From: Paratinospora sagittata
Taxonomy: Eukaryota > Streptophyta > Magnoliopsida > Ranunculales > Menispermaceae
Length of the DNA: 64,000 bases
Assembly: GCA_035771175.1 (NCBI GenBank)
Contig: CM069605.1
Span: forward strand, 25,312,288-25,376,287
Reading direction: 5' to 3'
In this document: positions 12,776 through 52,401 of the stretch, one piece after another
Layout: every line of letters starts with the position of its first letter
Numbering within the stretch: the stretch's first letter is position 1
Translations under genes and position numbers: made by a program
Notes under the pieces: generated by a model
Database searches by the model: none
Told to the model about the DNA's origin: nothing
Seen by the model: only the letters and a program-made list of their open reading frames with translations

Positions 12776-13138
12776 TGTTGCAAATATGTTTAATATCCAA
12801 ATAGTAAATACATGTACTATACACATGTTACAAAAAGTTCAGTATACAAGTGGTATATATATCCAAGTAGTGTATCTATTCAAATGATATATGTATTCAA
12901 GTTATATATGTATACGTATACATGTATGTATACCTTGCCATATGAATCATGTGGGTTGATGGTAGCTCTCTCCCTATAAATAGGGGAGAGAGTTGAGAGC
13001 AATTGTTGTAGAGAAAAAGTGAAGAGAAAATGTATGAAAATTGTATGGCGAAATGATGGAAAATAAGAAGAGAAAATGGAGAATGAAATCTAGCATTTCT
13101 TTGAGTATTCATTGATTATTCTGATTTAGTTTACAACA
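12776..13138 (+). repeat. 5' LTR of the Ale-like copia element
   Basis: The 363-bp LTR includes the TATA-type sequence CCCTATAAATAGGGG at 12972-12986 and an AG-rich leader. It matches the split 3' LTR closely, apart from scattered substitutions and small indels. Confidence 0.88.
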
Positions 13139-13682: not shown

Positions 13683-15271
13683 CATAACCCATTTGTATTT
13701 TGCCCGAACTCTGTGCGTTTGCTTCATAATGTATATTAGGTGTGTATACATATTTATTATGAAGTTTTATTAAATTCTAATTGAACCAGTGAAATACCCT
13801 AATGTCACGTACGTGAGAATAGTTTATTTTGGATGAACCTAGAAATTGGCCTAATGTCACGTACGTGAGAATAGTTCATTTAGGATGAACCTAGAAATTG
13901 GCCTATTGTCACACACGTGAGAATAAACAAGTTTTGGCAGATTTTCAAGTGTGGGCCCAAATTTGTGTATTTAAGCAACCAACACCCAAAATTAGCTCAT
14001 TTGCACGTTTTTGAGCTTGGAAAAGAGGGAAAGAGGAGGAGAGGATAAAAAGTGGAGAAAAGCTAGGGTTTTGGTGATTCCTTGCTAAAATTACTCCCAA
14101 AGTATGTGTAATTTCTCCTTTTCTTCCTAAAATCTCTTTGTGGTTGTGTAAATGGGCATGATTTTGACCTAAGGATGGGTATGAACCATTGTTTGGGGGT
14201 GTTCCTAACCTAGGGTTTACTAATTTTTTCCCTTTTAAGCTTGTTTATGGAAGAAACAACCCTCTAAGACCTAGATCTACACCTAATGTGCATTTTGCAA
14301 GCACTTCACCACGTTTTTGGTGGGTGCGTGGGTTAGGGTTTTGTTGAAAACCCTTAGGGCCGAGATGTATGATAGGGATTTGGGTTGCTAGGTTGATTTG
14401 GAACCAAATGGAACCATTTTACCCAATTTCTAGCAAGAAATTGGTGGAGCTAAGTGTAATGACCCTAAACCTAGAGAATGAACATAGGGTTTTCCATCCA
14501 AGTTGCTTGCAATCTATGCTGATTTAATGGCTAAATGTGGATAATTGATTGTCCAATTTACTGATTTTGAATGATAGACAACCTAGGTGTAGTGTAAAAT
14601 TGGCCTAGGGCTTGATTTTGGGACTTTGTCCAAAATTGGGACTTTTGTTTTAAATCAAGTCAATTGATTATATTGACTTGAGACTTGTCTAATTGAACCC
14701 AAATTGAATGGAATTGTGGGTTTATAATGGTTTAGCTTTTGTTGGAATCGAATGAGTTAGTTCAATTTGACTTTATGCTCTATTGTAGAGATTTTTCCCA
14801 AATTGGGGCATATGCTATGTATTGGCTTAAATTGAGAATTTATGTGGTTTATGATCAATCTTTCATGGTTTGAATGTTAAATGGTGCTTTAACTTGGATA
14901 GCCATGAATAGGCCTAGACTAAGTATTTGTCTTGGGTTTTGAAATTGAGTTCTTATATGTGGATCAGTATGGATGTTGAGGTTGATCATGAGAAGATGAA
15001 ACTTATGATAAAGCCTAGGCATGTATGGGCCTATTAGTTGTGGAATTGATCATGTATATTGTTTATGTATGGGTATGATCATGGTGATTAACGTACGTGC
15101 ATGTGATCATGATTTACAGGATCGTGATTTGGATTTGGAATCGATGTTGATCCGTGTGTGGTTTGTAGCTTGCGTGGCTTGGTTGTGAGTAGTTCATTTT
15201 GTTTATCACTTGTGTCATCATATTAAATTATACTTGTATGTTGAATGTCATGAAATATCATTGAGAAAATG
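13683..15271 (+). repeat. Copy A of a ~1.59-kb tandem duplication
   Basis: It begins CATAACCCATTTG and ends GAGAAAATGCA. It includes a further small tandem repeat of about 60 bp around 13798-13920, built on GTCACGTACGTGAGAATAG, which copy B lacks. Confidence 0.88.
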
Positions 15272-16810
15272 CATAACCCATTTGTATTTTGCCTGAACTC
15301 TTTGTGTTTGCTTGATAATGTATATTAGGTGTGTATATGTATTTATTATGAAGTTTTATTAAACTCTAATTGAACCAGCGAAATACCCTAATGTCACGTA
15401 CGTGACAATAGTTCATTTAGGATGAACCTAGAAATTGGCCTATTGTCACACGCGTGAGAATAAACAAATTATGGCAAATTTTCAAGTGTGGCCTCAAAAT
15501 TGTGTATTTAAGCAACTAACACCCAAAATTGGCTCATTTGCACGTTTTTGAGCTTGGAAAAGAGGGAAAGAGGAGGAGAGGAGAAAAAGTGGAGAAAAGC
15601 TAGGGTTTTGGTGATTCCTTACTAAAATCTCTCCCAGGGTATGTGTAATTTCTCCTTTTCTTCCTAAAATCTTTGTGGTTGTCTAATGAGCATGATTTTG
15701 ACCTAAGGATGGGTATGAACCATGGTTAGGGAGTGTTCCTAACTTAGGGTTTACTGAATTTTACCCTTTTAAGCTTGTTTATGGTAGAAACAAACCTCTA
15801 AGACCTAGATCTACACCTAATGTGCATTTTGCAAGCACTTCACCACGTTTTTGGTGGGTGCGTGGGTTAGAGTTTTGTTGAAAACCCTTAGGGCCGAGAT
15901 GTATGATAGGGATTTGGGTTGCTAGGTTGATTTGGAACCCAATGACACCATTTTCCCCAATTTCTAGCAAGAAATTGGTGGAGCTAAGTGTAACGACCCT
16001 AAACCTAGAGAATGAACATAGGGTTTTTCATCTAAGTTGCTTGCAATCTATGTTGACTTAATGGCTAAATGAGGATCATTGATAGTCCAATTTACTAATT
16101 TTGAATGGTGGAAAACCTAGGTGTAGTGTAAAATTGGCCTAGGGCTTGATTTTGGGACTTTGTCCAAAATTGGGACTTTTGACCTAAATCAAGTCAATTG
16201 ATTAAATTGACTTGAGACTTGTCTAATTGAACCCAAATTGAATGGAATTGTGGGTTTATAATGGTTAGAGTTTTGTTGGAATTGAATGAGTTAGTTCAAT
16301 TTGACTCTATGCCCTATTATAGAGATTTTTTCCAAATTGGGGCATATGCTATGTATTGGCTTAAATTTTGAATTTATGTGGTTTATGATCAATCTTTCAT
16401 GGTTTGAATGTTAAATGGTGCTTTAACTTGGATAACCATGAATAGGCCTAGACTAAGTATTTGTCTTGGGTTTTGAAATTAAGTTCTTATATGTGGATTA
16501 GTATGGATGTTGAGGTTGATCATGAGAACATGAAACTTATGATAAGGCCTAGGCATGTATGGGCCTATTAGTTGTGGAATTTATCATGTATATTGTTTAT
16601 GTATGGGTATGATCATGGTGATTGATGTACGTGCATGTGATCCTGATTTACAGGATCTTGATTTGAATTTGAAATCGGTGTTGATCCGTGTGTGGATTGT
16701 AGCTTGCGTGGCTTGGTTGGGAGTAGTTGTTCATTTTGTTTATCACTTGTGTCATCACATTAAATTATACTTGTATGTTGAATGTCATGAAATATCATTG
16801 AGAAAATGCA
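15272..16810 (+). repeat. Copy B of the ~1.59-kb tandem duplication
   Basis: It begins CATAACCCATTTG directly after copy A and ends at the same GAGAAAATGCA motif, after which the LTR continues as unique sequence. The two copies are clearly diverged by scattered substitutions and indels, so the duplication is not recent. Confidence 0.88.
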
Positions 16811-23239: not shown

Positions 23240-23252
23240 TTTAAAGGGGGAG
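23240..23252 (+). promoter_or_regulatory. Polypurine tract of the Ale-like element
   Basis: AAAGGGGGAG immediately precedes the 3' LTR start TGTTGTAAAT. It would prime plus-strand DNA synthesis in an active element. Confidence 0.8.
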
Positions 23253-23347
23253 TGTTGTAAATATGTTGAATATCCAAATAGTAAATACATGTACTATACA
23301 CATGTTACAAGAAGTACAATATACAAGTTGTAATACCCTGTATTTCA

Positions 23348-23387
<40 letters not shown>

Positions 23388-23416
23388 ACTATTTGAAATT
23401 TTTACTATTTGGGCAA

Positions 23417-23762
23417 CGCCCGAACGTTCTGGCAGGCGCCTGAACGTTCTGGCATGGCGCCTGAACGTTCTGGCAGGCGCCTGAACGTTCTGGCATGGCG
23501 CCTGAACGTTCTGGCAGGCGCCTGAACGTTCTGGCATGGCGCCAGAACGTTCAGGCGCCATGCCAGAACGTTCAGGCGCCTGCCAGAACGTTCAGGCGCC
23601 CTGCCAGAACGTTCAGGCGCCTGCCAGAACGTTCAGGCGCCTGCCAGAACGTTCAGGCGCCTGCCAGAACGTTCAGGCGCCATGCCAGAACGTTCAGGCG
23701 CCTGCCAGAACGTTCAGGCGCCATGCCAGAACGTTCAGGCGCCTGCCAGAACGTTCAGGCGC
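23417..23762 (+). repeat. 17-copy GAACGTTC array in the 5' LTR U3
   Basis: Units of 20 or 21 bp, each with GAACGTTC plus GGCGCC and TGCCA. The first six units read CTGAACGTTCTGG; the last eleven are in the opposite orientation, CAGAACGTTCAGG. The switch falls at about 23538-23545. The array stops about 10 bp before the TATA box. Confidence 0.95.
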
Positions 23763-23769
23763 AAAAATC

Positions 23770-23778
23770 TCTATATAA
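23770..23778 (+). promoter_or_regulatory. TATA box of the Tekay 5' LTR
   Basis: CTATATAAG lies directly after the array. Transcription of the element should start about 30 bp downstream. The same site is at 33444-33452 in the 3' LTR, from where transcripts could read into flanking DNA. Confidence 0.75.
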
Positions 23779-24889
23779 GAAACCTCCTCATTTCTCATTT
23801 CTCACACCAAATCACCTTCTCTTGTGATTTTTCTTCTCCTTTCCACGCTTTCTAAGTTTTTAGTTTTTGAGACTCTCTAATCGAGACTCCCGGTGCGGTG
23901 CAACAAATTTCTGTCCGGAGAAGAGCGCCAGATCTGAAAGCGGTGCAACGAAGTTCCGTCCGGAGAAAAGCACCAGATCTGAAGGTGGGGAACGAAACAT
24001 AGGTTTGCGTGTTTCATAACTTTTATTAAAGTTTACATTCAATTATTATTATGTCTACTATTCATTTACACTGCATTATATCAATAATGTTTATGACCTG
24101 AATGTCCTAACCTTGCACGTCGTGATACCGACCCTAATAAGGATCACTAGACGATGCCAAAGTCAGTCTAAATGTCAAGAAAAGACCAGACCAGTAGACT
24201 AGACTAGTTCATGCATTGGCATCATACATATCACCACCTAGGGACGTATATGGTTTATGACTCATAGAATAGTTAGAAGCATTGCTCACTATTCATATTA
24301 TTTCTCTGGAGAGGGACGTACATGTGAACCTGGCTACGCCAGGGAGGGACATCAGTACGTGAATCCAGAGCGTCGTTCCTGAGGAGGGACGTACAGTGAG
24401 AACCTGGCTTCGCCCGGGGAAGGACACCAGTACGTGAACTCAGGCGATGTACGTTCATCAAACCATTAGTACGCGACGGTGTCATGCATACATGCATATT
24501 GATTGATTATGATGCTTACATGTGTATTTAAGATATTTGATATTGAAGTATGCTTTATTAATTGTTATACTCATGCACTATTTACCCACTGAGCGCGTTA
24601 AGCTCACTCCAATATTATCAAATCTTTCACAGGAAATTAGGGTGGACTGGGTGCAGGTTATGGGGCCCACATTTTGTACCCCTTGTATGAATCATTGGGG
24701 ATTTTGGGAGTATGTTCCCTTGACCATTTTATGTACAAAAGTATTCTGAATCATATGAAATCAGATTTGTACTGTGTACCGTATTTCCGCTGCGCATTCT
24801 GTTATTACCATTATGATTGTTCCAAATGCACGCCCCGTCCGAGAGTGTACCGCCGGTTTAGGCGCGTCCGGGCGGGGTGTGGCATTTAA

Positions 24890-24901
24890 TGGTATCAGAG
24901 A
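24890..24901 (+). promoter_or_regulatory. Primer binding site of the Tekay element
   Basis: TGGTATCAGAGA matches the initiator tRNA-Met PBS (TGGTATCAGAGC) at 11 of 12 bases and starts six bases after the LTR end. Confidence 0.88.
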
Positions 24902-25771
24902 GTACGGTCCACGGCCCGCCCAAGTCCACCAAATTAGGGAAAGAAACTATAGTTGATTTAAAAATACATATAGTAATAATTTATTAGAAACTATATGTGT
25001 AGTTATTATTGAATATATGTATCTATATACATTAGTGTATATGAGGTACGTATAAAAAAAAAAAAAAAAAAAATTTACTTTTCAAAAAATATTTATTCGA
25101 ATATTCGGGAAATAAAAAAAAAAAAAAAAATTTACTATTTGAAATTTCTAAAACTATATATATATGACTTCCATATATAGTTAGGATTAAAAATAACTAT
25201 ATATGATTTTTATATAGTCTCAATTTCCAATATATATAGTTGCGTTATGAAAACTATATATATAATTATGATTAACTATGTCTATACATTCATATGTGAA
25301 TATGACATATATATACATTTTAAATAGTTGATTTTTGGAAACTATATATAGTTATGAGTCGATATGTCTATACATGTGAATACGACATATATACATCTCA
25401 TCACTAATGAAAGAAAATTTCATGATGGCATAAACATCAACAGAAAACTCGAAAATAATGTCTAGCAGACAAGACATAAATCTTAAAATAATTAAATATG
25501 TCTATACATTCATATGTAAATATGACATATATACACATTCCAAATAGTTGATTTTTGGACACTATATATAGTTATGATGAAATATGTCTATACATTCATA
25601 AGTGAATACGACATATATGCATCAAATCACTAATGAAGAAAATCTCATGCTGGCATAAACATCAACAGAACACTCGAAACAAATGTCTAGCAGACAAAGC
25701 ATAAATCTTAAAAATATTAGGAATATATTTTGTGTCTTGCACACAAATTTATTTTCCTTTCCGCAAAAAGA
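24902..25771 (+). other. AT-rich leader of the Tekay element with ~219-bp duplication
   Basis: Untranslated leader. Two poly(A) runs (25050s, 25110s) are followed by TTTACTATTTGAAATTTC, the same words that follow poly(A) at the LTR start. A segment of about 219 bp is duplicated (about 25277-25494 and 25495-25720), each copy with two TATGTCTATACA words and one TCTAGCAGACAA. There is no coding frame. Confidence 0.7.
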
Positions 25772-27364
25772 ATGACCTCAAGGGAGGGAACATCTTCTAC
25801 TAGCAGGGAACCAATTCCCACTAGACTAACGGAATTGTCCAAACGAGAGGTTGTGACTATGAGGAGCATCGACAATGGCGATCTCCGCCTCCGTCCAATC
25901 CTTCATGACAAACTCGCAGCACTGGATTGGTTAAATATAACCAAAGTCGAGGGTCAAGTCTCTTACAACTTGGTTAGATCCTTCTATGAAGCCATGAATT
26001 ACGTGGGACTTCACGGAGAGACGATCAGCCCTCACTTAGAGACAACAATCATGGGAACGACAATTCCTATCAATATCGCGATTATTGCTCGCCTTTTGGA
26101 GATTCCGATTGAGGCAATAATTATTGATCCACATGATCCCCAGGCAGTTGCAGCGACCGCCGAATCTAATGCACAACTGTTTAATTTCGTCGCCAAAGAG
26201 CCATACACTCAATCAACATACACCAACCTCCCAAACAATCATCTTAAGCCATCTCTTGTCGGCCTCGGAAAGATTGTATACGGCAACATCTTGCCAGAAA
26301 GGGGTACTAGGGGCACTATGTCAAGGGCCCAACTCCTTGTGCTGTATTGCATAGAGAAGAACATAAAAGTCTCTCTACCACACATCATCATCCAACAAAT
26401 GTTGAGGGTGATTCAAAACCCTTTAAAGAAGGAATTCCTCGGCTACGGAGTCTTGATTATGAGGATCCTTCACGAGGCCAACGTTGACACTTTCGATGGA
26501 ACGTCAAAGCTGATCACTGAACCAGTTACAGCATCCTCTATCTTCAAGACCTATGGCACAAGTGGAGGGGTAACTGACGAAGAGGTATTCGGCACGACAA
26601 ACAGAACTGTCGAAAGAATGAGGGACAAGCACGGGCGTTGCCTTCGCAAATGTCGACGCAAGATGCCTGTCAGAGACGGCCCAAATAATGATTCAAATCC
26701 CAATCCTACATCAAACCCACCCCTGAATACTGATCCAATTGATCCACCACTTACTGACGAAGAATTATATGCCACACTAAATTCGCCACTACAACGTCAT
26801 GATAGACAAGGTCCACAAGCAAACCCACCAACTTGGAACGTGCCAACTCAAGGCAACACTTCGTACCAAAGATTTCCACCTTCTGCGGTACAGTATCAGC
26901 CCGTTCCACAAGTTGCTGTAAACTAACAACAACAGTACTGGGCCTCACCAAATCTTGGAGGACCAAACATTCCAATGAGCCCATTGTTCCCAACTTTTTC
27001 ATCTCAAACAAACCAAATTATCCAAGGGGTTCCGGTTAGGGGATCTCCGCACAATCAATACAGCTATGTTCCACCTCAGAACCACCCATACAACCAATAC
27101 TTTCCTCAAATGCCTATGGCCTACCCTTCACCTACGAGACAACCAACCCACCAACCACCAATGGGACAACCGACTAACCTACTTGAACGGTTAGATGAAA
27201 TGGCATCCAATATTGCTGCACTGAAAGAAAGCCACAATCATGTATTAACTCGTTTGCAAAACTCCAACGCAGAGCGAGCACACTCTCAACCTTCTGTTAG
27301 TAGTCATTCTGTACATAACAGTAGATCTCAAAGAAATGGTGGTAGGCAAGAACGTCAAAATTGA
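25772..27364 (+). pseudogene. Extra ORF upstream of gag-pol (plant-transposon-protein-like), one stop
   Basis: Starting at the ATG before TSREGTSS, a single frame runs 531 codons, interrupted only by TAA at 26924-26926 (a CAA-rich context, QVAVN then QQQYW). Residues 40-240 form an alpha-helical globular domain (VSYNLVRSFYEAMNYVG, LLEIPIEAI, SRAQLLVLYCIEKNIKVSLP, GYGVLIMRILHEANVD) that resembles the 'putative plant transposon protein' accessory domain seen in several plant retroelements. The C-terminal half is Pro/Gln/Asn-rich and ends in a short coiled-coil-like helix (NLLERLDEMASNIAALKES). It lies in sense orientation before gag-pol. Possible roles are nucleocapsid-like, RNA-binding or env-like, but none is shown. 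The frame's near-integrity suggests recent function. Domain assignment is from memory and not searched. Confidence 0.65.
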
Positions 27365-28144: not shown

Positions 28145-31100
28145 ATGCAAACCAGGAAGAGAGGAAGGCCACGTACTGTTCGTCCTACAGTTGAGGCACC
28201 TCCTGAGATTCAGGAACCGCCGCCTCCGACAACAGCACAGGCCACACCCGACACTACCACTACATCTGGGCAGGCAATACCACCACCACCCGCACCCTTT
28301 GCCATGCCTTCAAGCATTGAAACCTTCTTCGCTGGATTTGTTGAGGCAATGAAAGTCACTGTTCAAACTGCTGTTCGTGAGACTGCAGCCAGTCAGGTTG
28401 CCACGGTACAAGCACCTATAAAATTTGGGTCGGACGCTCAAACCGATCAGATTACTAAATACAAGCGACTACAACCTCTTACTTTCGATGGCACCATTGA
28501 TCCTGATGAGGTGCAAAAGTGGCTAGATGAGTCAAAGAAGGCTCTTGATGCAATGGGAGTCGATGAGACTCGCAAAATTCCACTAGCAACTTACCAACTT
28601 GTTGGTGGAGCAAACAAATGGTGGCTCACAGTGAAAGAAGACCCACGGGTCAATATAGCAGATATGACTTGGCACCAGTTTGAATCAATGTTTATTGATG
28701 AGTATTTTCCCAGCGCGGTGACAAAGCAGAAGCGCCAGGAATTTGCTAAGTTATATCAGGGCACCATGACCGTCAGAGAATATGCTGGAAAATTCAAAGA
28801 ATTATCTGTCTACTCTCTCTCCACCATCTCAACGGAGCGAGATAAGTCCGAGAAATTTTATAATGGCCTTCGCCATGACATTCGGCAAGCCTTATCGATC
28901 TTGGACATCAAGATTTACAAGGAGGTTGTTGACAAGGCCATGAGCTTTGAACAAGAGAAGCTCTTACAAGAACAGCGAATGAATAAGGGCAAACGACCTG
29001 CACAATTTTCCCCACAAGGCTCACAACAGGGCAACAGGAAAAAGCCCTACTACAATCAAAACCCAGCCCTCCCAGCCCCGGTTTCGCCGAATGCAGGCAC
29101 AACACCTGCGACTGAACCTTTTAACTCTAACCACCAGGGTTTCCGAAATCATGGCCGTGGCGGTCGTTATGGACGAGGTGGCCGTAGCAACGGAAATGGC
29201 AGAGGTGGTGGCCGACACCACAATCAACAAGGCCAGCACAATAATCAGAATGGCCAGCAAAACCATCAGCAGTACAGGCCAACTTGTTACAACTGCGGCC
29301 AGAAGGGCCATGTCAAACATCTTTGTCCGCACCTTCAGCAACCTATTCCTGCTATTCCAGTCCAACAAGCACCACCTGCTGCTAATGCCCAACCCAGGCA
29401 GACCCAGCCGAACCAGGGTCCACGGAATCAGGGCAGAGCATATGCCATCGCTCACCAACCCCTCCAAGACAATAATGTCGTCGAAGGTACCTTTCCTTTG
29501 TTCAATACCTTGGTGCATGTTTTGTTTGATTCAGGTGCTACGCATTCTTTTATATCATCAACATTGGTAAGACATTTAGGCCTGCATCCTGAACCCACAA
29601 CCATCACACTCCATGTCACATCACCATTCGGATCGGGTACTGACGTGAATTTGCAGTGTTCTCGCTGTGAGCTTCGAATGTCCGAACAGATAATATATGC
29701 CGATCTTTTTGTGATGGATTTTGATGACTTCGACATCATCCTCGGCATGGACTGGCTGGCACCACTGCATGCAAAGATCGACTGTATGACCAAGCAAGTT
29801 CAGTTAACTTTGCCTACAGGAGAGTTTGTCAAGATTCAGGGAACAAGACAATGGATCCACAAATCAACAGTTGCCCTTCTCAAGTCACAACTTCGAGCGT
29901 TGTCTCTTGGAAACGACAATGAATCACCAGCTCTGTACCCTCCCGAAGTACGCGATGTTCCGGTCGTATCTGAATTCCCAACAGTTTTTCTTAATGACCT
30001 TCCTGGTCTACCTCCAGTTAGGGAATTTGATTTTGAGATCAACCTCATACCTGGGACAGGGCCTATCTCAATTCCACCATATCGAATGTCCAATGTTGAA
30101 CTGGTCGAATTAGACAAACAACTTAAGGAATTAGAGAGTACTGGCTTCATCCGAAAGAGTTCATCACCCTGGGGCGCTCCAGTTCTGTTTGTTCGCAAAA
30201 AGGATGGTTCGTTACGACTTTGCATCGATTATCGCAAGTTGAATAACGTCACCATCAAGAACAGATATCCGTTGCCCAGGATCGATGACTTATTCGACCA
30301 ACTTCGAGAAGCCAAATACTTCTCTAAGATTGATTTACGGTCCGGTTATCACCAACTCCGGATCCGGGAGTCAGACATCACCAAGACGGCGTTCAGAACT
30401 CGGTACGGTCATTACGAATTCTTAGTTATGCCGTTCGGTCTAACAAATGCCCCTGCTGCATTCATGGATTTGATGAATCGCATATTCAGGTTATACTTAG
30501 ACCGATTTGTGGTGGTTTTTGTGGACGACATCTTGATATATTCCTCAACCGAAGACGACCATAAACTACATTTGACGATCGTCCTCCAGACCTTACAAAG
30601 ACACCAACTGTATGCAAAGTTGAGTAAGTGCGAATTTTGGGCAAAGCGAGTTCAATTCCTAGGCCATGTGGTTTCAGGCAATGGCATTGAGGTAGATCCT
30701 TCTAAAGTTGAAGCCGTTTTAAACTGGAAGCAGCCTACCACTGTTACTCAGATTAGGAGTTTTCTTGGTTTGGCTGGCTATTATAGACGCTTCATCAAGG
30801 ATTTCTCAAAGATTGCTGAACCTATGACCAAGCTCACTCGAAAAGACGTGCGCTTTATCTGGAATTCCGCCTGTGAAGCATCATTTCAGGAATTGAAAAA
30901 ACGCCTCACGACAGCACCTGTACTTATCACTCCAAGAAATGCAATTGGATTTTCATTATACACCGACGCCTCTCTCCAAGGCTTAGGTGCCGTGCTAATG
31001 CAAGAAGGCCAAGTGGTTGCATATGCGTCCAGACAACTGAAGATTCATGAGGGTAATTACCCAACGCATGACTTGGAACTTGCCGCTGTTGTATTTGCAC

Positions 31101-32863
31101 TAAAGTTATGGCGTCATTACCTATACGGTGAACGCTTTGAGGTCTTCTCGGATCACAAGAGTCTTAAGTACATATACACTCAGCGAGACCTTAACCTCCG
31201 CCAACGACGATGGTTGGAATTCTTGAAAGATTATGACTTTCAACTCCAGTACCATCCCGGAAAGGCCAATGTTGTGGCTGATGCCCTGAGTAGAAAATCT
31301 TATGTTGCTTGCACTCTTAACTATGACATGGGAAAGTTGGCTACAGAGTTGGAAAACTTTAACCTACAACTGAACATAGAGGGACCAAGACCACGACTCT
31401 CTCAATTATCAGCTACCTCTGACCTTGTTCGCAAGATTTCAGCTACTCAAGCCAATGACCCTATGTTAATGGAGAAACGAGAACTTTTACTCAGCGGGCA
31501 AGACCTTCCTCATTGGTCAGTCTCTGACGACGGAGCCGTTTTCTATAAAAAACGTCTTTGTCTTCCGAACGATCCCGAGGTTCGGAAAGACGTGCTTACT
31601 GAGATGCACTGTTCGAGATATGCCATGCATCCTGGGGGTGACAAGATGTACCAGGATGTCAAGCGACAATTCTGGTTTTCTGGAATGAAGAAGGCAATTG
31701 CAGACTTCGTTGCTCGATGTCTTGTTTGCCAGAAAGTTAAGGCAGAACGCAGACTTCCCTCTGGCCTTCTCCAGCCGTTACCTATTGGAGAATGGAAATG
31801 GGAGAACATCGCAATGGATTTTGTTACAGCCTTACCTCGAAATAATAAAGGGCAAGATGCTATCTGGGTTATCATTGACAGACTCACCAAGTCTGCACAC
31901 TTCTTGCCAATAAAGTTCACGGATACTCCCGCCAAACTTGCAGAACTATACGAAAGAGAGATCGTACGCCTTCATGGCATACCACTCACGATCGTCTCTG
32001 ATCGAGACCCTCGCTTCACCTCACACTTTTGGAAAAGCTTCCAAACTAGAATGGGTTCTAAGATCACTATGAGCACAGCCTTCCACCCTCAGACTGATGG
32101 GCAGTCAGAACGGCTTATCCAAATCTTAGAAGACATGCTACGATGCTGCATTTTGGACTTTCATGACGGATGGGCAAAGTATTTGCATCTAGCTGAGTTT
32201 GCATACAACAACAGCTACCAAACTAGTATCGGCATGGCACCATACGAGGCTCTCTATGGTCGGCCTTGCAGATCTCCGGTATGCTGGTTAGATATGGTAG
32301 ACCGACCGCAGTTGGGCCCTGAACTAGTTCAAGAGACTTCTGAGAAGATCACACTAGTAAAGGAACGACTTCGTGTTGCACAAAGTCGACAGAAGAGCTA
32401 TGCTGACAAACGACGACAGCCTCTGGAATTTGATAAGGGGGACTTTGTTTTTATACAAGTCCAGCCCACCCGAGGTGTCAAACGCTTTGGGATCAAAGGA
32501 AAGCTCTCCCCGCGGTATATCGGTCCATTTCCGATCATTGAACGTATTGGCAAACTTGCATATCGTCTGTCCCTTCCATCGTCCATGCCTAAGGTTCATG
32601 ACGTTTTTCACGTATCTATGCTTCGCAAGTATCGTCCTGATCCTTCGCATATCATCCCTTTAGTCGAGGTTCGGGTTGAGGAAGGAAATAGGTACCAGGA
32701 GACAGCAATCCAGATTTTAGATACAAAAACTCAAGAACTACGGCACCGTAGCATACCACTTGTGAAAGTGCTCTGGGATCACCACGGCGTAGAGGAAGCA
32801 ACATGGGAACTAGAATCAACAATTAAACAAAAATACCCTGAATTGTTTTCTAGCACCAACTGA
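28145..32863 (+). CDS. Intact Ty3-gypsy Gag-Pol polyprotein (Tekay lineage)
   Basis: One 1572-codon frame. Order: Pro-rich N-terminus; gag core about residues 108-280; Gly/Arg/Asn/Gln-rich basic linker; zinc knuckle [14 protein letters not shown] at 381-394; aspartic protease DSGATHSF at 462; reverse transcriptase with [11 protein letters not shown] near 690 and the catalytic VDDILIY at 793-799; RNase H with YTDAS near 941; integrase HHCC zinc finger (H1155, H1162, C1192, C1195) and a D,D-35-E triad at D1225, D1286 and E1322; then a GPF/Y-like segment and a chromodomain-like tail ([18 protein letters not shown]) near residues 1535-1555. All catalytic residues I can check are present and there is no stop or frameshift. 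Gag and Pol share one frame, as is usual for this lineage. The chromodomain-like tail is thought to guide integration into heterochromatin. Start: first ATG of the frame, just after CCAGTGAGAAA. Confidence 0.96.
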
Positions 32864-33088: not shown

Positions 33089-33101
33089 AAGGGGGGTAGA
33101 G
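33089..33101 (+). promoter_or_regulatory. Polypurine tract of the Tekay element
   Basis: AAGGGGGGTAGAG immediately precedes the 3' LTR and would prime plus-strand synthesis. Confidence 0.85.
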
Positions 33102-33120
33102 TGTAATACCCTGTATTTCA

Positions 33121-33165
<45 letters not shown>

Positions 33166-34558
33166 ACTATTTGAAATTTTTACTATTTGGGCAACGCCCG
33201 AACGTTCAGGCGCCTGCCAGAACGTTCAGGCGCCTGCCAGAACGTTCAGGCGCCTGCCAGAACGTTCAGGCGCCTGCCAGAACGTTCAGGCGCCATGCCA
33301 GAACGTTCAGGCGCCTGCCAGAACGTTCAGGCGCCATGCCAGAACGTTCAGGCGCCTGCCAGAACGTTCAGGCGCCTGCCAGAACGTTCAGGCGCCATGC
33401 CAGAACGTTCAGGCGCCTGCCAGAACGTTCAGGCGCAAAAATCTCTATATAAGAAACCTCCTCATTTCTCATTTCTCACACCAAATCACCTTCTCTTGTG
33501 ATTTTTCTTCTCCTTTCCACGCTTTCTAAGTTTTTAGTTTTTGAGACTCTCTAATCGAGACTCCCGGTGCGGTGCAACAAATTTCTGTCCGGAGAAGAGC
33601 GCCAGATCTGAAAGCGGTGCAACGAAGTTCCGTCCGGAGAAAAGCACCAGATCTGAAGGTGGGGAACGAAACATAGGTTTGCGTGTTTCATAACTTTTAT
33701 TAAAGTTTACATTCAATTATTATTATGTCTACTATTCATTTACACTGCATTATATCAATAATGTTTATGACCTGAATGTCCTAACCTTGCACGTCGTGAT
33801 ACCGACCCTAATAAGGATCACTAGACGATGCCAAAGTCAGTCTAAATGTCAAGAAAAGACCAGACCAGTAGACTAGACTAGTTCATGCATTGGCATCATA
33901 CATATCACCACCTAGGGACGTATATGGTTTATGACTCATAGAATAGTTAGAAGCATTGCTCACTATTCATATTATTTCTCTGGAGAGGGACGTACATGTG
34001 AACCTGGCTACGCCAGGGAGGGACATCAGTACGTGAATCCAGAGCGTCGTTCCTGAGGAGGGACGTACAGTGAGAACCTGGCTTCGCCCGGGGAAGGACA
34101 CCAGTACGTGAACTCAGGCGATGTACGTTCATCAAACCATTAGTACGCGACGGTGTCATGCATACATGCATATTGATTGATTATGATGCTTACATGTGTA
34201 TTTAAGATATTTGATATTGAAGTATGCTTTATTAATTGTTATACTCATGCACTATTTACCCACTGAGCGCGTTAAGCTCACTCCAATATTATCAAATCTT
34301 TCACAGGAAATTAGGGTGGACTGGGTGCAGGTTATGGGGCCCACATTTTGTACCCCTTGTATGAATCATTGGGGATTTTGGGAGTATGTTCCCTTGACCA
34401 TTTTATGTACAAAAGTATTCTGAATCATATGAAATCAGATTTGTACTGTGTACCGTATTTCCGCTGCGCATTCTGTTATTACCATTATGATTGTTCCAAA
34501 TGCACGCCCCGTCCGAGAGTGTACCGCCGGTTTAGGCGCGTCCGGGCGGGGTGTGACA
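33102..34558 (+). repeat. 3' LTR of the Tekay element
   Basis: 1457 bp, starting TGTAATACCC and ending GTGTGACA. It matches the 5' LTR base for base, as far as I can see, after the array. It has about 41 A (against about 37) and 12 array units (against 17), all in one orientation. Confidence 0.95.
33198..33436 (+). repeat. 12-copy GAACGTTC array in the 3' LTR U3
   Basis: Units of 20-21 bp, all in the orientation GAACGTTCAGGCGCC(A)TGCCA, stopping about 8 bp before the TATA box at 33444. Confidence 0.95.
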
Positions 34559-34838
34559 CAAGTGGTGTATGTATTCAAATGATACATGTATTCAAGTTAT
34601 ATATGTATACGTATACATGTATGTATACCCTCCCACATGATGTATGTGGGTTGGTGGTAGCTCTCTCCCTATAAATAGGGGAGAGAGTTGAGAAAAATTG
34701 TTGTAGAGAAAAAGAGAAGAAAAGATGTATGAAAATTGTATGGAGAAATGATGGAAAATAAGAAGAGAAAATGGAGAATGAAATCTAGTATTTCTTTGAG
34801 TGTTCATTGATTATTCTGATTCAGTTTACAACAATATA

Positions 34839-36209: not shown

Positions 36210-36318
36210 TATAATCTTTCAATACAAGTCTCGCCTTATATTTATTAATTGATCAATCTGCTTTCAGTTTTTTCTTGAAAATCCATTTGGAACCTAGTGG
36301 TTTACAACCAGGAGGAAT
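36210..36318 (-). pseudogene. Tork-like copia reverse transcriptase N-terminal fragment
   Basis: On the minus strand: PPGCKPLGSKWIFKKKLKAD, then INKYKARLV, the conserved start of the copia RT domain, with one in-frame stop. It continues, across the SIRE-like insertion, from the sequence at 51257. Everything downstream (rest of RT, RNase H) is lost on the left. Confidence 0.85.
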
Positions 36319-38109
36319 TGTTGATGTAACTACTCACACCAAAATTTGTTTTGATGATTACAAACAACATACTTGTGATAACTAATCTATTTGACGTAGT
36401 TGTTTCAGTGCTAACTAGATACATCAAATGGATTCAACTGCATTGTCAAAGCATGTGGAAGGAACAACACTTTACGAAGATTCAAGAGCTTTATGGTTGT
36501 ATTTCTTTATTAGAATCTTAGCATTCTAGAGTAACATTTACTTGTTCCAACCACATGATTTGCATCTTTTCAAAAATCATTCATATAGTTTATCATTCTC
36601 ATGCATATACATTATGATATAATTAATCATGCATGTACATATATTAGTCTAATAATTATGTTATCACTTAGTTATAATTGTTTATCATACATATATTGAT
36701 CAGTGTTCAACATGCATTCGTCTTGTCAACTTTGCATGGTTTTATCGTTTCATGTGTATTATACTTATTGCTTTGATCATTGGTTTAATCAATAGAATCA
36801 CTCATGTTTAACTGTGTTAATTATACCTTAATCGTGTCAAAAATGTTTTAAAATGTTTTAAAATGTTTTTGAAAATGTATAAAACCTAATATGATAAAAA
36901 AAAAATTGAGTTTCTTTCACTTCTTAGTGCAGGAACGCGCTCCTGAGCTTTTTCCTGAGACTTAGTGATTTTTTATCAGGGTTTAAGGAACGCGCTCCTA
37001 TGGCTTTTTTCGAGACTCATAATTTTTCTAATAAGGGAAAAGGAACGGGATCCTTTAAGAAGGAACGCGCTCCTGTTGCAAAGGAAAAAATAGGAAAAAC
37101 TTTAAGAGTTAGTGGTTCTTGTTGAAGGAACTCGTTCCTATGCCCAATGAACATATTGAGGAACGCGCTCCTTGATTGGAGAAAAATCTGAGATTTTTCA
37201 GATTTCAAACCAAAAACGCGTTGTTGTGTTAAGGAACGCGTTCTTGTGCCTTGGTGTGGTGTTTATCTATAAATACCACATTTGCTCATTTGAAGAGCAA
37301 CTTTTGGAAAACTGAGAGAACTTGTGCATTTTTCTTGTTAGTCTTTATACAAGCAAACAACAAGTTCTTGAGTGATTTAAACATTCTTTCAAAGCAAAAG
37401 TTCAACAATATTTGATCTATTGATCCAATCTTTCGAATATTTCTCCACATCTTCCTAAACCTTGAGAAACTTAGGAGTTTCTCTTGTGCAAGTGTTCAAG
37501 ACGATTTGAGTGCTATATACATCTTCTATTGAGTCTTGATTGTGATTTTTCTTATCCAACTTCTCACAAGAAGAATCTTGGAGCTTCAACCTTACCTAGT
37601 GGGGTATACGTTTCTATATATAGATTCTTGTGATATTGGTTTATGCAAATTAGTTTTGTGCCTATATTTCATCTTTAAAACAGATTTTGTGTTGATTGTG
37701 TTTGTGAGACCCTATCTTGATCTTCATAACAAAATACCTTGTTTAGTGGTTTCATAAATAGTTTGAGATATCAATTCATATGTTAACATCATATTATATT
37801 GAATCAAAATTTTTGATCATACTTGATTTGTTTGATTCTTGCTCTTAATCACACATTCATTTAAAATCATCATGTTTTGATCATAATGGTATATTGATTC
37901 TCGAGTTTTAAGCTTATCGTTGTTTAGAATCAATATCTTGATTGTTGTGCATATTCGATTCATTGTTTTACATCACATCTATTTGAATCGATTGCATTAG
38001 AAAAAAAACCTATTTCAACACTTTGCATCATTTAAAATCATAGTGGTTGAAATAGTATTGTTGACTCATTCAAAATTGTAAGCTTATATTTAAAATTGTA
38101 AGCTTATAT
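36319..38109 (+). repeat. Left arm of a 3.5-kb inverted repeat (SIRE-like LTR, plus orientation)
   Basis: It matches 48969-50750, the first ~1.78 kb of the element's 3' LTR. It carries repeats of AGGAACGCGCTCCT type at 36930-37240 and a TATA box TCTATAAATACC at 37266-37277. The last ~500 bp of the LTR are missing here: at about 38109 the sequence turns back on itself. Confidence 0.88.
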
Positions 38110-38111
38110 TT

Positions 38112-39830
38112 AAGCTTACAATTTGAATGAGTCAACAATACTATTCCAACCACTATGATTTTAAATGATGCAAAGTGTTGAAATATGTTTTTTTTCTAAT
38201 GCAATCGATTCAAATAGATGTGATGTAAAACAATGAATCGAATATGCACAACAATCAATATATTGATTATAAACAACGATAAGTTTAAAGATCGAGAATC
38301 AATATACCAAGATGATCAAAACTTGATGATTTTAAATGGATGTGTGATTAAGATCAAGAATCAAACAAATTAAGTATGATCAAAAACTTCGATTCAATAT
38401 AATATGATGTTAACATATGAATTGATATCTCAAACTATTTATGAAACCACTAAACAAGGTATTTTGTTATGAAGATCAAGATAGGGTTTCACAAACGCAA
38501 TTAACACAAAATCAGTTTTAAAGATGATAATATAAGTAAAAATTGATTTGCATAAACCAAAATCACAAGAAACTAGTTGTAGAAATGTATACCCCACTAA
38601 GTAAGGTTGAAGCTCCAAGATTCTTCTTGTGTGAAGTTGGATGATAGAAATCACGATTGAGACTCAATACATGACGTAGAAAACACTTGAATCGTCTTGA
38701 ACTCTTGCACAAGAGAAACTGTCCAAGTTTCTCAAGGTTTAGAAAGATGTGGAGAAATATTTTGAAGATTGGATCGATAGATCAAATATTGTTGAACTTT
38801 TGCTTTCAAAGAATGTTTAAATCACTCAAGAACTTGTTGTTTGCTTGTATAAAGACTAACACGAAAACTGCACAAGTTCTCTAGATTTTTGTAAAAGTTG
38901 CTCTTCAAATGAGCAAGTATGGTATTTATAGATAAACACCACACCGAGGCACAAGACGCGTTCCTTAACACAGGAGCACATTTCTGGTTTGAAATACGAA
39001 AAAGTTCAGATTTCCCTCCAATTAAGGAGCGTGTTCCCTACTTAAGGAGCATTTTCCTCAATATGTCCGTTGGGCATAAGAACGAGTTTCTTCAACAAGA
39101 ACTACTGACTCTTAAAGTTTTTCCTATTTTACCCTTGGCAACAGGAGCGTGTTCTTTTTCCCTGATCAGAAAAATTGTGAGTCTCAGAAAAAACTATAGG
39201 AGTGTGTTCGTTAAACCCTGATAAAAAATCACTGAGTCTTGGGAAAAAGCTCAGGAGCGTGTTCTTTTACTGACACGTGAAAAAAACTCAATTTTTTTTT
39301 ATCATTATAGGTTTAGGACATTGTCAAGAACATAGACTAACATTTTAAAATATTTTGACACGATTAAGGTATAATTAAAACAGTTAAACATGAGTGATTC
39401 GATTGATTAAACCAATGATTAAAGCAATAAGTATAATACACATGAAACGATAAAACCATGCAAAGTTGACAAGGTGAATGCATGTTAAACATTGATCAAT
39501 ACATGTATGATAAACAATTATGACTAAGTGATAGCATAATTATTAAACTAAAATATGTGCATGCATGAGAATAATAAACTATATGAATGATTTTAAAAAG
39601 ATGCAAATCATGTGTGGTTGGAATAAGTAAATGTTACTCTACAACACTAAGATTTTAATAAAGTAATACAACCATGAAGCTCTTGAATCTTCGTAAGGTG
39701 TTGTTCCTTCCACATGCTTTGACAGTGTAGTTGAATCCATTTGATATATCTAGTTAGCATTGAAACAACTACATCAAAGACATTAGTACCGTGATGATAT
39801 TGTTTGTATGCATCAAAACACTTAGAAGAG
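38112..39830 (-). repeat. Right arm of the inverted repeat (same LTR, minus orientation)
   Basis: Reverse-complement match of the left arm throughout, including the TATA box (GGTATTTATAGATA, near 38920-38935) and decayed palindromic motifs. It is more diverged than a fresh duplication would be, with many transitions (CGCG motifs turned to CGTG). It is followed by ATTGGGCCAACA and the PBS. Confidence 0.85.
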
Positions 39831-39931: not shown

Positions 39932-41095
39932 ATGACAGGACAATGCTCAACTAGCTATCAAATAGACAATAGCAAATACACCAACAGACCATCATTGTTT
40001 AGAAAAGAAAATTTTCATGAGTGGAAGATTCTCATGAAAACATTTATGAGATCACAAGATGTCGTTCTTTGGGAAATGGTGGAAAATGGCTATACTCTTC
40101 CTGACAAGCCCACTGAGCTTTGGACAACTCAAGAAAGAGAAGAGTATCGTCTAAGTTCCAGGGCGGTGTATGCCTTATTTTGTAGTCTCCCAGATAACGA
40201 GTTAGACCAAGTCAGTGAATGTGAGACTGCAAAAGAAACATGAGAATTGCTTCATTTGGTTCACTGTGAGCCACTTGATAACAAAAAATCAAGGCTCAGG
40301 GATGCAGATAAAAGATTTGAAGATTTCAATATTCCTGAAAATGAACCAATTGAAGAGGTGTGTTCCAGATTCAGATTTATTCTTGAAGACTTAAAAGGAT
40401 CTGAATCAAGAGATACCATATGAGATTAGCATCGTATGCTTTGCTGACAAACTTCCGAGTTATTGGGCTGAAAAACTTACAAGCACAGCAAAAGTGTTTA
40501 ATCCATGGGAGTTCACCTTGGAAGAGTTTTGCAACTTACTAAAATCTATAGAAGCCAAGGATGATACAACAGTAAGAACTAAAGTGCTTAAAAGATCGCT
40601 TGAAAATTTCAAGTTCTCACATGAGGAAATAGTTGATGAGGGACTTAATAGGTTGATAGAATTAGCAAGTGATTTGCAAAGTTATAGAATAACCTATCCT
40701 CATAAAATATTGGTTAAGTATTTCTTAGAGGGTTTCCCAGACAAATGGAAGTACAAAGTGGACTTTATTGAGATGTTTGACGATCCGTTTAACAATAGCT
40801 TTGAGAGAATTCTTTATGTGTTAAGCAGACTCAAAACCACCTCAGAAGAAAGTGAACCTTCATCCGAAAGAAGAGAAATGCTTGCCAACTTACCAAGTGA
40901 TGATGACAGAAATAGAATGGATGACAGCGAAACATCATCATTGGTAAATGATCAATACGATGAAGAAGAACAAGTTGAGGATGACCAATCACTAAGTTCC
41001 ATATCTAGTGGTTCACTCATTTACACCTCAACTGATGAAGACAAAGATCTGAATATTCAAATTAGCATTCGAAGGTTTTCAAAAATTCTAAGATG
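39932..41095 (+). pseudogene. SIRE-like gag, broken
   Basis: From the ATG at 39932: MTGQCSTSYQIDN, then the conserved FRKENFHEWKILMKTFMRSQDVVLWEMVENGY segment of copia gag. A TGA in a Trp-type position (near 40241) interrupts the motif KET-ELLHLVH. The frame continues to about 40420, where a shift moves it to the frame of 40494-41095 (WEFTLEEFCNLLKSIEAKDD, then a second gag-like unit with FLEGFPDKWKYKVDFIE, then an acidic Ser/Asp/Glu tail). Gag would assemble the particle. The zinc knuckle and all of pol are absent. Confidence 0.8.
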
Positions 41096-42271
41096 AAAAA
41101 TGTGGATTAGGAAACTACTTGGATGCAACAAAGACTCAAACAACACAATTGATGATCAAAATGCAAATTTGGAGGTTCCTTGAAGTGCTTCATGATCGGT
41201 CTTCTCTTGTGGGTAACACTTCTATTTAAATTCAAATATTTATATTGTGTTATTCCACAAATGGTCTGAACATATCCTCTTAAACATAAATTAATTGTGT
41301 ATTAAGAGATATGTCTATGTTGAAGCATCTAATATTCATTTAAGCATGATACTTGTCATATCATTTTTATTGCATACATCATGTTATTGATGAGTGCTAT
41401 ATACTTAAGGGATGAATGAGTTGGATAAACTTTTCATGTCATACTATGCCTAATTATAATATTTGTATGATTTTGAAAATATCTTAGGTTTAATTAAAAA
41501 GATTATCATATCCTTTTGCCTATGCTTCAAACTTAATTGATTTGATCAAGTTAGGAATTATGTATATTTTGATCATTGATTGAGATATGTAATGTGTACT
41601 TGTGTATCTTGTGAGCTTGCTAGAATTGATTATCATATATTCACAGGGAGAATTTTCATCTATATTAAATGAATCATGTGTCTCAAATTTTTATGTGTAT
41701 TATTCCATTTAATATTGAACTACGTTATTGAGTATTGATACTTAATTGATATTATGATATTTGCTCAATTTGAATGGATGTATGTATATTTGAACTTAAT
41801 ATATTCTATTACTTCCAATGTGTTCATGTGAATGTGTGTATGATTATTTTATGATCACTTGAATACATTATCTATGATAATCTTGCATGTATTATTTCCA
41901 ATAATGATGCATGATTCATTAATGTTAATCTTGTATGAATTATTGTTGATGTACATGTGTGTGTGTGTGTGTGTTAATTTGGAGTGAATGATCTTGATTA
42001 TAGTGTTTTTATTATTTTGATGTGTGTATCATTTACTTAGAAATGACCAAAACTTTTCTTGAATAATCATAAATTATCAACTTAATCAAAGTGGAAATCA
42101 AGAAAATCAAAATTAAAGTGTTTAAATGTTTTGTGTTCTTAAGGAACACACTCCTACAAAGAAGAATGTGCTCCTTTGCATGAACACCAGAAGGTGTTCT
42201 ATAGAGAACATAGGAACGCGCTCCTCTTAAGAGAAACATGTTCCCTAAGTTTGATAACAAATCAGTCAAGC
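41096..42271 (+). other. Non-coding internal region of the SIRE-like element
   Basis: AT-rich, no frame. It contains a (GT)n run near 41957-41974 and, at 42137-42240, several GGAACACACTCCT/AGGAACGCGCTCCT words like those in the LTR U3. Confidence 0.45.
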
Positions 42272-48490: not shown

Positions 48491-48968
48491 TTTCAAAAGA
48501 AGGAGAGATTAGTATGATTTTGGTCTGATTGACTAGAACATTTTGTGCACATACTCAGGGGAAGAGTTTATACACTCAGGGGGAGTGTTTGGAGTTGGAC
48601 ATACATTTTGGAGATGTTCTATTTTTTTTTTTGTTACACTTTTTTACTCTTTGTGTACTTACGTTATTTGTGCTTTATTTTTTGATATACGCATCTATGA
48701 TGATCAAATGTATATGTTTGATTTGACTATATTGATATACATGTACATTTTGTGCTAATTGATCATATCTTTGAGTGTGCTTTTATTGGTATCTGATTGA
48801 TTACTCTCCACATGGTATTGAATGTTAAATTTTTTATTAAGTGTTATATTCTTAAAAGTGGCATGATATAATTATTCACTTCACTCATTCATTCACTTGA
48901 GAAATCATGCTTCTTGTTTCAATCTGGCCAATAGTGAATTTGTTTGAAATCATAAAAAATGGGGAGAA
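48491..48968 (+). other. 3' untranslated region and polypurine tract of the SIRE-like element
   Basis: It contains two CATACTCAGGGG / CACTCAGGGGGAG words (48549-48590) and ends AAAAAATGGGGAGAA directly before the LTR, the likely polypurine tract. Confidence 0.65.
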
Positions 48969-51256
48969 TGTTGATGTAACTACTCTTACCCAGTTTTGTT
49001 TTGATGATTACAAACAACATACTTGCGATAACTAATCTCTTTAATGTCGTTGTTTCAGTGCTTGTTAGATATATCAAATGGATTCAACTGCACTATCAAA
49101 GCATGTGGAAGGAACAACACTTTACGAAGATTCAAGAGCTTCATGGTTGTATTTCTTTATTAGAATCTTAGTGTTCTAGAGTAACATTTACTTGTTCCAA
49201 CCACACATGATTTGCATCGTTTCAAAAACCATTCATATAGTTATCATTCTCATGCATATACATTATGATATAATTAATCATGCATGCACATATATTAGTT
49301 TAATAATTATGTTATCACTTAGTTATAATTGTTTATCATACATATATTGATCAGTGTACAACATGCATTCATCTTGTCAACTTTGCATGGTTTTCTCATT
49401 TCACGTGTATTGTACTTATTGCTTTGATCATTGGTTTAATCAATCGAATCACTCATGTTTAACTGTGTTAATTATACCTTAATTGTGTAAAAAATGTTTT
49501 AAAATGTTTTTGACAATGTCTAAAACCTATTATGATAAAAAAAATTCTAGTTTCTTTCACTTCTTAGTGAAGGAACGCACTCCTGAGCTTTTTCCCGAGA
49601 CTTGGTGATTTTTTATCAGGGTTTAAGGAAACGCGCTCCTGTGGCTTTTCCCGAGACTCAAAATTTTTTTGATAAAGGAAAAGGAACGCGCTCCTTTAAG
49701 AAGGAACATGCTCCTGTTGCCAAGGAAAACATAGGAAAAACTTTAAAAGTTAGCGGTTCTTGTTGAAGGAACCCGTTCCTATGCCCAACAGACATATTGA
49801 GGAACGCACTCCTTAAGTAAGGAACGCGCTCCTTGCTTGGAGAAAAATCTAAGATTTTTCAGATTTCAAACCAAAAATGCACTCCTGTGTTAAGGAACGC
49901 GTTCCTGTGCCTTAGTGTGGTGCTTATCTATAAATACCACACTTGCTCATTTGAAGAGCAATTTTTGCAAAACTTAGAGAACTTGTGCATTTTTCTTGTT
50001 AGTCTTTATACAAGCAAACAACAAGTTCTTGAGTGATTTAAACATTCTTTGAAAGCAAAAGTTCAACAATATTTGATCTATTGATCCAATCTTCCGAATA
50101 TTTCTCCACATCTTTCTAAACCTTGAGAAACTTAGGAGTTTCTCTTGTGCAAGTGTTCAAGACGATTTGAGTGCTATATACATCTTTTATTGAGTCTTGA
50201 TTGTGATTTCTCTTATCCAACTTCACCCAAGAAGAATCTTGGAGCTTCAACCTTACCTAGTGGGGTATACGTTTCTCTATCTAGATTCTTGTGATTTTGG
50301 TTTATGCAAATCAATTTTGTGCTTATATTATCATCTTTAAAACATATTTTGTGTTGATTGCGTTTGTGAGACCCTATCTGGATCTTCATAACAAAATACC
50401 TTGTTTAGTGGTTTTATAAATAGTATGAGATATCGATTCATGTGCTAACATCATATTATATTGAATTGAAGTTTTTGATCATACTTGATTTGTTTGATTC
50501 TTGGTCTTAATCACACATTCATTTAAAATCATCAAGTTTTGATCATCATGGTATCTTGATTCTCGAGCTTTAAACTTATCATTGTTTAGAATCAATATCT
50601 TGATTGTTGTGCATAATCGATTCACTATTTTACATAACATATATTTGAATCGATTGCATTAGAAAAAAACCTATTTCAACACTTTGCATCATTTAAAATC
50701 ATAGTGGTTAGAATAGTATTATTGACTCATTCAAGATTGTAAGCTTATATTGTTGAGAGTGTTATTGTACAGTTCTCTATATCTTTTGTAATCTTGATGT
50801 ATTGTTGACTTGATTAATTCAACCAAGACATTTCCATATTTTGTACGGCACGTAACCATGCCCGCAAGTGGGTTACAAGTTGTGGCTTTCTAGCCAAGCC
50901 CTAATTTAGGCTAGTTTGTGGCTTTCTAACCAAGCCCTCGTGTAGGTTAGTTGTTGTGCCTTTTCTAACCAAGCCCTTGTGTTGGTTAGAGTGTAAACAA
51001 CTACTAATCACGCCCGTAAGTGATTAGCCAATAGCGTATTGGGAAATCCTGATCGTGGTGATTAGGTAGTGGGTGTAGGTTCAAGGGGAATCGAACTACT
51101 CTAAATCCTTTGTGTTCATTTATCTTTCCTGCACGTAGTATTTGGATTGTTATGTACTGCGCACATTGCTTGTTTAATTAAAATATCTGAAAGGTAACAC
51201 GAAAATTCGCCAAGTCCAATTCACCCCCCCTCTTGGACTATAATACTATGCCAACA
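48969..51256 (+). repeat. 3' LTR of the SIRE-like element
   Basis: 2288 bp, TGTTGATGTAAC to ATGCCAACA. U3 holds a row of AGGAACGCGYTCCT-type motifs (49571-49905, the last a perfect palindrome), and the TATA box TCTATAAATACC is at 49928-49939. The leader part contains five tandem 24-25 nt hairpins (50852-51027) and ends with the CTTGGACTATAATA block usual before the LTR end. Confidence 0.85.
50852..51027 (+). other. Five tandem covarying RNA hairpins in the LTR leader
   Basis: Stems: GTAACC/GGTTAC (50852-50876), CTAGCC/GGCTAG (50890-50914), CTAACC/GGTTAG (50926-50950 and 50965-50989) and CTAATCAC/GTGATTAG (51004-51027). Each hairpin is 24-25 nt with a loop starting near GCCC. Base changes between stems are compensated on the other side. 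Confidence 0.75.
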
Positions 51257-52396: not shown

Positions 52397-52401
52397 TCCT
52401 G

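Follow-up and report, generated by a model that had tools for sequence, protein, structure and literature searches.

A tandem array of near-palindromic units upstream of the TATA box differs in copy number and orientation between the two LTRs of a young Ty3/gypsy retrotransposon

A short unit carrying a heat-shock-like dyad is repeated every 20-21 bp upstream of the TATA box in both long terminal repeats (LTRs) of a retrotransposon from Paratinospora sagittata, and the locus raises the question of whether this array is a control region and, if so, for which kind of factor. The window, i.e., the whole stretch of 64,000 nucleotides that was analysed, contains the complete element. The host of the array is a young, coding-intact Ty3/gypsy retrotransposon, with the following parts:

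23324-23328, target site duplication CAAGT, 5' copy, 5 bp
23329-24884, + strand, 5' LTR, 1556 bp, TGTAAT...GTGGCA
24890-24900, + strand, primer binding site TGGTATCAGAG, after the 5' LTR
25730-26926, + strand, extra ORF in sense orientation before gag, TTG start, 398 aa, PF20167 Transposase_32 (E 3.2e-17)
28145-32863, + strand, intact gag-pol ORF, 1572 aa in one open frame
33089-33096, + strand, candidate polypurine tract AAGGGGGG, picked by eye
33102-34558, + strand, 3' LTR, 1457 bp, TGTAAT...GTGACA
34559-34563, target site duplication CAAGT, 3' copy

The reverse transcriptase (RT) and RNase H precede the integrase, which places the element in Ty3/gypsy. Domains above the Pfam cut-offs in gag-pol were gag, protease, RT (RVT_1, 683-842), RNase H (906-1030), the integrase zinc-binding domain (Integrase_H2C2, 1143-1200) and SH3_Tf2-1, while the integrase core rve (1223-1315; 24.9 of 32.6 bits), a zinc knuckle (20.3 of 20.8 bits) and a C-terminal chromodomain (PF00385; E 0.0022, 18.3 bits for a cut-off of 25.1) fell below them. 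The element is probably of the chromovirus type, the chromodomain match being weak. In its domain order, SH3_Tf2-1 and weak chromodomain it is similar to what we take to be the Tekay/Del lineage of chromoviruses, from which the U3 array and the extra PF20167 ORF before gag set it apart. The most frequent additional ORFs sit between pol and the 3' LTR, according to the available part of PMC7264820; for the 398-aa ORF, in spite of its Pfam match, no homologue at E <= 0.001 was found among 3188 candidates. A protein search with RT-RNase H gave at least 7947 matches; among the best 120 listed the names given were those of plants, at 40-75% identity, and the best over RT-RNase H among the matches listed was an ENA protein at 75% identity.

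The youth assigned to the element by the first-pass annotation was borne out by near-identical LTRs, the target site duplication, a primer binding site presumably of the initiator-Met tRNA type, the candidate polypurine tract and the open gag-pol. When the array and a run of A are set aside, a single substitution separates the two LTRs over 1184 bases compared (1128 + 20 + 36, the 1128 including the last six array bases); the remaining differences are one T bordering the A run and the length of that run. At substitution rates of 0.7-1.3e-8 per site and year the insertion would be roughly 30-60 thousand years old, with the wide error of an estimate based on a single change. The flanks of the element match 12776-12851 and 12864-13138 at 93%; these two stretches, 12 bp apart, look like a paralogue without the insertion. 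Directly before the insertion, at 23240-23328, a purine-rich GGGGGAGTGTTG stretch was noticed by eye; it resembles what we assume to be the start of a copia 3' LTR, and the young element may thus be nested in a copia element.

The array and its surroundings in U3 are laid out as follows:

23349-23385, + strand, A run in the left part of U3, 37 bases in the 5' LTR (41 in the 3' LTR)
23417-23762, + strand, U3 array of the 5' LTR, 17 GAACGTTC cores 20-21 bp apart
23422-23536, - strand, inverted block, 115 bp, identical to the reverse complement of 23642-23756 and of 33255-33369
23545-23762, + strand, direct block of the 5' array, 11 units
23772-23779, + strand, TATA box TATATAAG of the 5' LTR
33200-33436, + strand, U3 array of the 3' LTR, 12 cores in a single orientation throughout
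33446-33453, + strand, TATA box of the 3' LTR

The cores lie at 23422-23756 in the 5' LTR and at 33200-33430 in the 3' LTR, with steps that are always 20 or 21 bp (means of 20.44 and 20.27 bp). Thus the copy numbers and the period given in the first-pass annotation held, as did its statement that the array runs up to the TATA box: in both LTRs the array is flanked within U3 by the A run and the TATA box, and ends 9 bp upstream of the latter (array end 23762 and TATA start 23772 in the 5' LTR). The exact nGAAnnTTCn dyad that had been described is present in all 29 cores. The 10-mer AGAACGTTCA, said to be in each unit, is found in 16 of the 17 and 11 of the 12 units (27 of 29) but not in the first unit of either array, which reads CGAACGTTCT in the 5' LTR and CGAACGTTCA in the 3' LTR; its 27 occurrences on both strands of the window are all inside the two arrays, against 0.11 expected for the window from 100 shuffles. 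The repeat unit GCCnGAACGTTCnGGC is a near-palindrome, and the linkers between cores are of three types plus one junction form. Given the unbroken spacing, the core is unchanged in every unit within both arrays; the units were located by the exact core, and a recently amplified array would be uniform in any case.

The two arrays also differ in orientation. The first six of the 17 units in the 5' array are inverted, a block that the earlier description overlooked and that the 3' array does not have. With a prime for the opposite strand, the linker order of the 5' LTR is a' b' a' b' a' (junction) b a c a a a b a b a, and that of the 3' LTR is a a a a b a b a a b a; the junction form TGGCATGGCGCCA and linker type c are confined to the 5' array. 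The 115-bp inverted copy begins at a palindromic core: the left edge is common to both LTRs up to the first core, save the A run and one T, and beyond this palindromic first core the LTRs continue in opposite orientations. Short near-identical repeats in both orders are difficult to assemble and a single copy was seen, so that an assembly error has to be considered as the source of the inverted block, but we regard it as improbable, since the TGGCATGGCGCCA and c linkers are unique to the 5' array and a plain mis-join of units from the 3' array would not supply them.

A plain inversion was insufficient as the origin of the flipped block: in 53,822 segment inversions keeping at least 16 cores, none yielded an all-direct 5' array, at least one abnormal linker being left each time. 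The history of the array would therefore include more than one step, and a plain flip seems a less economical route than an inverted copy from template switching combined with one or more other changes. One substitution in 1184 LTR bases next to 17 versus 12 units indicates that the array changes much faster than its surroundings. Since error-free reverse transcription should leave identical LTRs, the array would have been recast after they were last identical, either during the final copying by reverse transcriptase or since then, in the chromosome. The palindromic GAACGTTC and GGCGCC would allow the array to slip and to switch strand during copying, by which both the copy number (12 or 17) and the orientation (six units flipped) could be recast.

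We interpret the array as a promoter-proximal tandem binding-site array in U3, acting as an upstream activator for some dimeric factor, and give this reading a probability of about 0.5. The unit is near-palindromic, and its ligand would hence likely be a dimeric or oligomeric factor. The U3 repeats of the tobacco element Tnt1 likewise lie upstream of its TATA box. In the available part of PMC2923131, Tnt1 is described with BI and BII repeats in U3, an additional BII repeat in some copies and template switching in U3, and the BII boxes bind defence-induced factors according to an excerpt of PMC3316501. The element studied here shares with Tnt1 short U3 repeats of varying copy number (the BII-type pattern of tandem U3 copies) and possibly the template-switched U3, by analogy and not by membership: Tnt1 is Ty1/copia and has another repeat sequence, whereas here a Ty3 element bears 12-17 near-palindromic copies, of which six are inverted in the 5' LTR. 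Should transcription be driven by the array, this one insertion would contain a pair of LTRs that are nearly alike except for the number and orientation of their sites. Such a pair would serve as a natural experiment on two questions: whether a large number of weak sites can stand in for a single strong stress element, and how fast a retrotransposon promoter is rewritten during copying.

The same lability would be expected of a neutral minisatellite, an unstable GC-rich palindromic repeat that expanded in U3 through slippage and has no regulatory function. The rapid change beside a single LTR substitution fits this explanation, and so does strong self-pairing: folded as single-stranded DNA, the 5' and 3' arrays gave z of -32 and -13, and none of 100 and none of 200 shuffles, respectively, were as stable. 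The position in the upstream promoter slot of a recently active element, 9 bp from the TATA box, and cores that stay unaltered in an unbroken run while the linkers vary speak against neutrality, neither of them strongly, and we hold this alternative to be tentative, at clearly less than even odds. The composition of the arrays also stands out, with about 64% G+C against 36% in the window and a CpG observed/expected ratio of 1.01 and 1.05 against 0.61, in accordance with the CpGs noted earlier in each unit as a possible methylation switch. A role as silencing trigger could be modelled on these properties: the 5' array folds as one long hairpin (minimum of -224 kcal/mol, single-stranded DNA), so read-through from outside might give hairpin RNA and siRNA-directed methylation of the CpGs, dense at a ratio of about 1. 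The element's own RNA, which starts after the TATA box, would include only the 3' LTR array without the foldback block, and such a trigger appears very improbable.

The binding-site array could be read by heat shock factor (HSF) or by bZIP factors as special cases. HSF control was proposed in the first-pass annotation, which was right about the exact dyad and its site in U3. The proposal was weakened by comparison with known heat shock elements. Canonical elements require three contiguous pentamers (PMC7010933, in excerpt), and no unit out of 29 has three or more contiguous alternating nGAAn/nTTCn pentamers. The rule for sequence-varied elements in the same excerpt tolerates, among three pentamers, a single mismatch at a base other than the key G/C; under it 16 of the 17 and 11 of the 12 units pass, by means of the TGCC before the dyad. 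This rule is permissive, because a search of the same kind also finds 2 canonical, 3 gapped and 19 varied sites in the window outside the arrays. As a control, the core was fixed and the other 12 bases were permuted, and 18% of 20,000 artificial units passed some three-pentamer rule.

On this basis each unit would count as a weak element (nTGCn-nGAAn-nTTCn), and HSF trimers would drive the retrotransposon under heat through the combined effect of 12-17 such units. Besides the 27 of 29 units that satisfy the one-mismatch rule, AGAACGTTC equals the first nine bases of the idealised heat shock element AGAACGTTCTAGAAC given in an excerpt of PMC10283073, the core sequence of which is also used in PMC4326385. 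Elements with a 5-bp gap were bound comparably in Drosophila (PMC7010933, in part), and a step of 20 bp corresponds to four pentamers, so that units spaced by 20 remain in register; the steps of 21 bp break it. Heat-induced Ty3/gypsy elements are known from pine, Cryptomeria and pitaya, as a table in the accessible part of the review PMC9780303 lists. Among the titles and abstract beginnings listed in searches of the open-access literature, none described an array of heat shock elements in the LTR of a plant Ty3/gypsy element.

Against an HSF array stand the lack of canonical elements in all 29 units, the 18% of permuted controls that pass, and the two motifs per unit, which are fewer than the three or four adjacent nGAAn motifs, with a minimum of three, to which the heat response of LTRs is tied in the available text of PMC5059998. 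There the two-motif nTTCnnGAAn, of which the array dyad nGAAnnTTCn is the mirror arrangement, is a non-functional proto-element whose duplication gave the strong element of ONSEN. The 10-11 bp between pentamers of successive dyads also miss the adjacency spacing of that text, in which gap and step forms are mostly insufficient for a heat response, with the exception of ROMANIAT5, which rose 42-fold in Brassica rapa with no more than a step form. For a synthetic promoter built from four copies of the three-pentamer AGAACGTTCTAGAAC, the response in Arabidopsis was not regarded as strongly specific for heat, although staining followed heat in four out of five lines and appeared in one without heat (PMC10283073, in excerpt). 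These motifs leave heat control as a possible, though not a favoured, reading, and HSF, the best named candidate, is rather unlikely to be the outcome.

ONSEN/ATCOPIA78 and other heat-responsive COPIA families resemble the present element as young plant retrotransposons whose LTRs contain nGAAn motifs. ONSEN carries four adjacent nGAAn motifs, a 4P element bound by HSFA2 (PMC5059998, in part), whereas the element here is Ty3/gypsy and has pairs of adjacent motifs, one pair per unit, with the pairs set apart from each other. It is conceivable, as a long shot, that a Ty3/gypsy promoter was built from many sub-threshold heat-shock dyads, avidity replacing the single strong element of ONSEN. The near-palindromic unit could work in both orientations, so reverse transcriptase might re-deal number and direction in each round and make responsiveness a fast-evolving dial.

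Other factors were sought with a panel of 36 plant consensus strings, not curated matrices, and 33 of these had zero matches in either array. A loose E2F-like string matched six times in the 5' array (0.78 expected) and three times in the 3' array, and the strict E2F string was absent from both; E2F was not favoured as ligand because most units are without even the loose string. GAANNTTC and AACGTT match every core. The latter is an ACGT-core T-box through which bZIP factors had been suggested to act, and its presence in 29 of 29 units follows from its being contained in the core by definition. T-boxes are weakly bound by bZIP factors. They are given as 'potentially targeted' by bZIP in an excerpt of PMC8309469. 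In the scan for HSF and bZIP motifs that had been advised, the T-box was thus confirmed in every core, but the G-, C- and A-boxes and the TGACG half site were all missing from both arrays, and a bZIP array seems quite improbable.

Pairing across the core centre holds at positions 1-4 and 6-8. The symmetry beyond the core (6-8) could be used by a dimeric factor and would be unneeded by a heat shock trimer, which is suggestive only. The period had also been taken to set all dyads on the same side of the DNA. At 10.5 bp per turn they drift by about -309 (5') and -274 (3') degrees over the arrays (R of 0.15 and 0.29); they hold one face only near an overtwisted 10.2 bp per turn (R of 0.96 in both arrays).

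In viral contigs, an RT-RNase H scan confirmed none of 7 stretches, and an exact 16-mer scan gave 12 single matches that were taken as chance and not as relatives. Three spaced GAACGTTC cores occurred in 11 viral-contig stretches, among them L015:4598-4646 with cores about 20 bp apart; one viral stretch, of which 151 bases were inspected, had AT-rich linkers unrelated to those of the array.

Elsewhere in the window, a direct duplication of several hundred bp was seen at 13683-15984 (offset about 1.5-1.6 kb, 92-95% alike), and a repeat family with several copies in both orientations at 36299-39787, 48949-50669 and 52382-54496, inside which lies a 406-bp inverted pair (37669-38074 and 38122-38527, 95%). 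A 61-bp tandem repeat occupies 61992-62394 in several copies, with higher-order periods of 93 and 154 bp. A 200-aa ORF at 40494-41096 (+ strand) matched the copia-type gag PF14223 at 28.2 bits, barely above the cut-off of 27.
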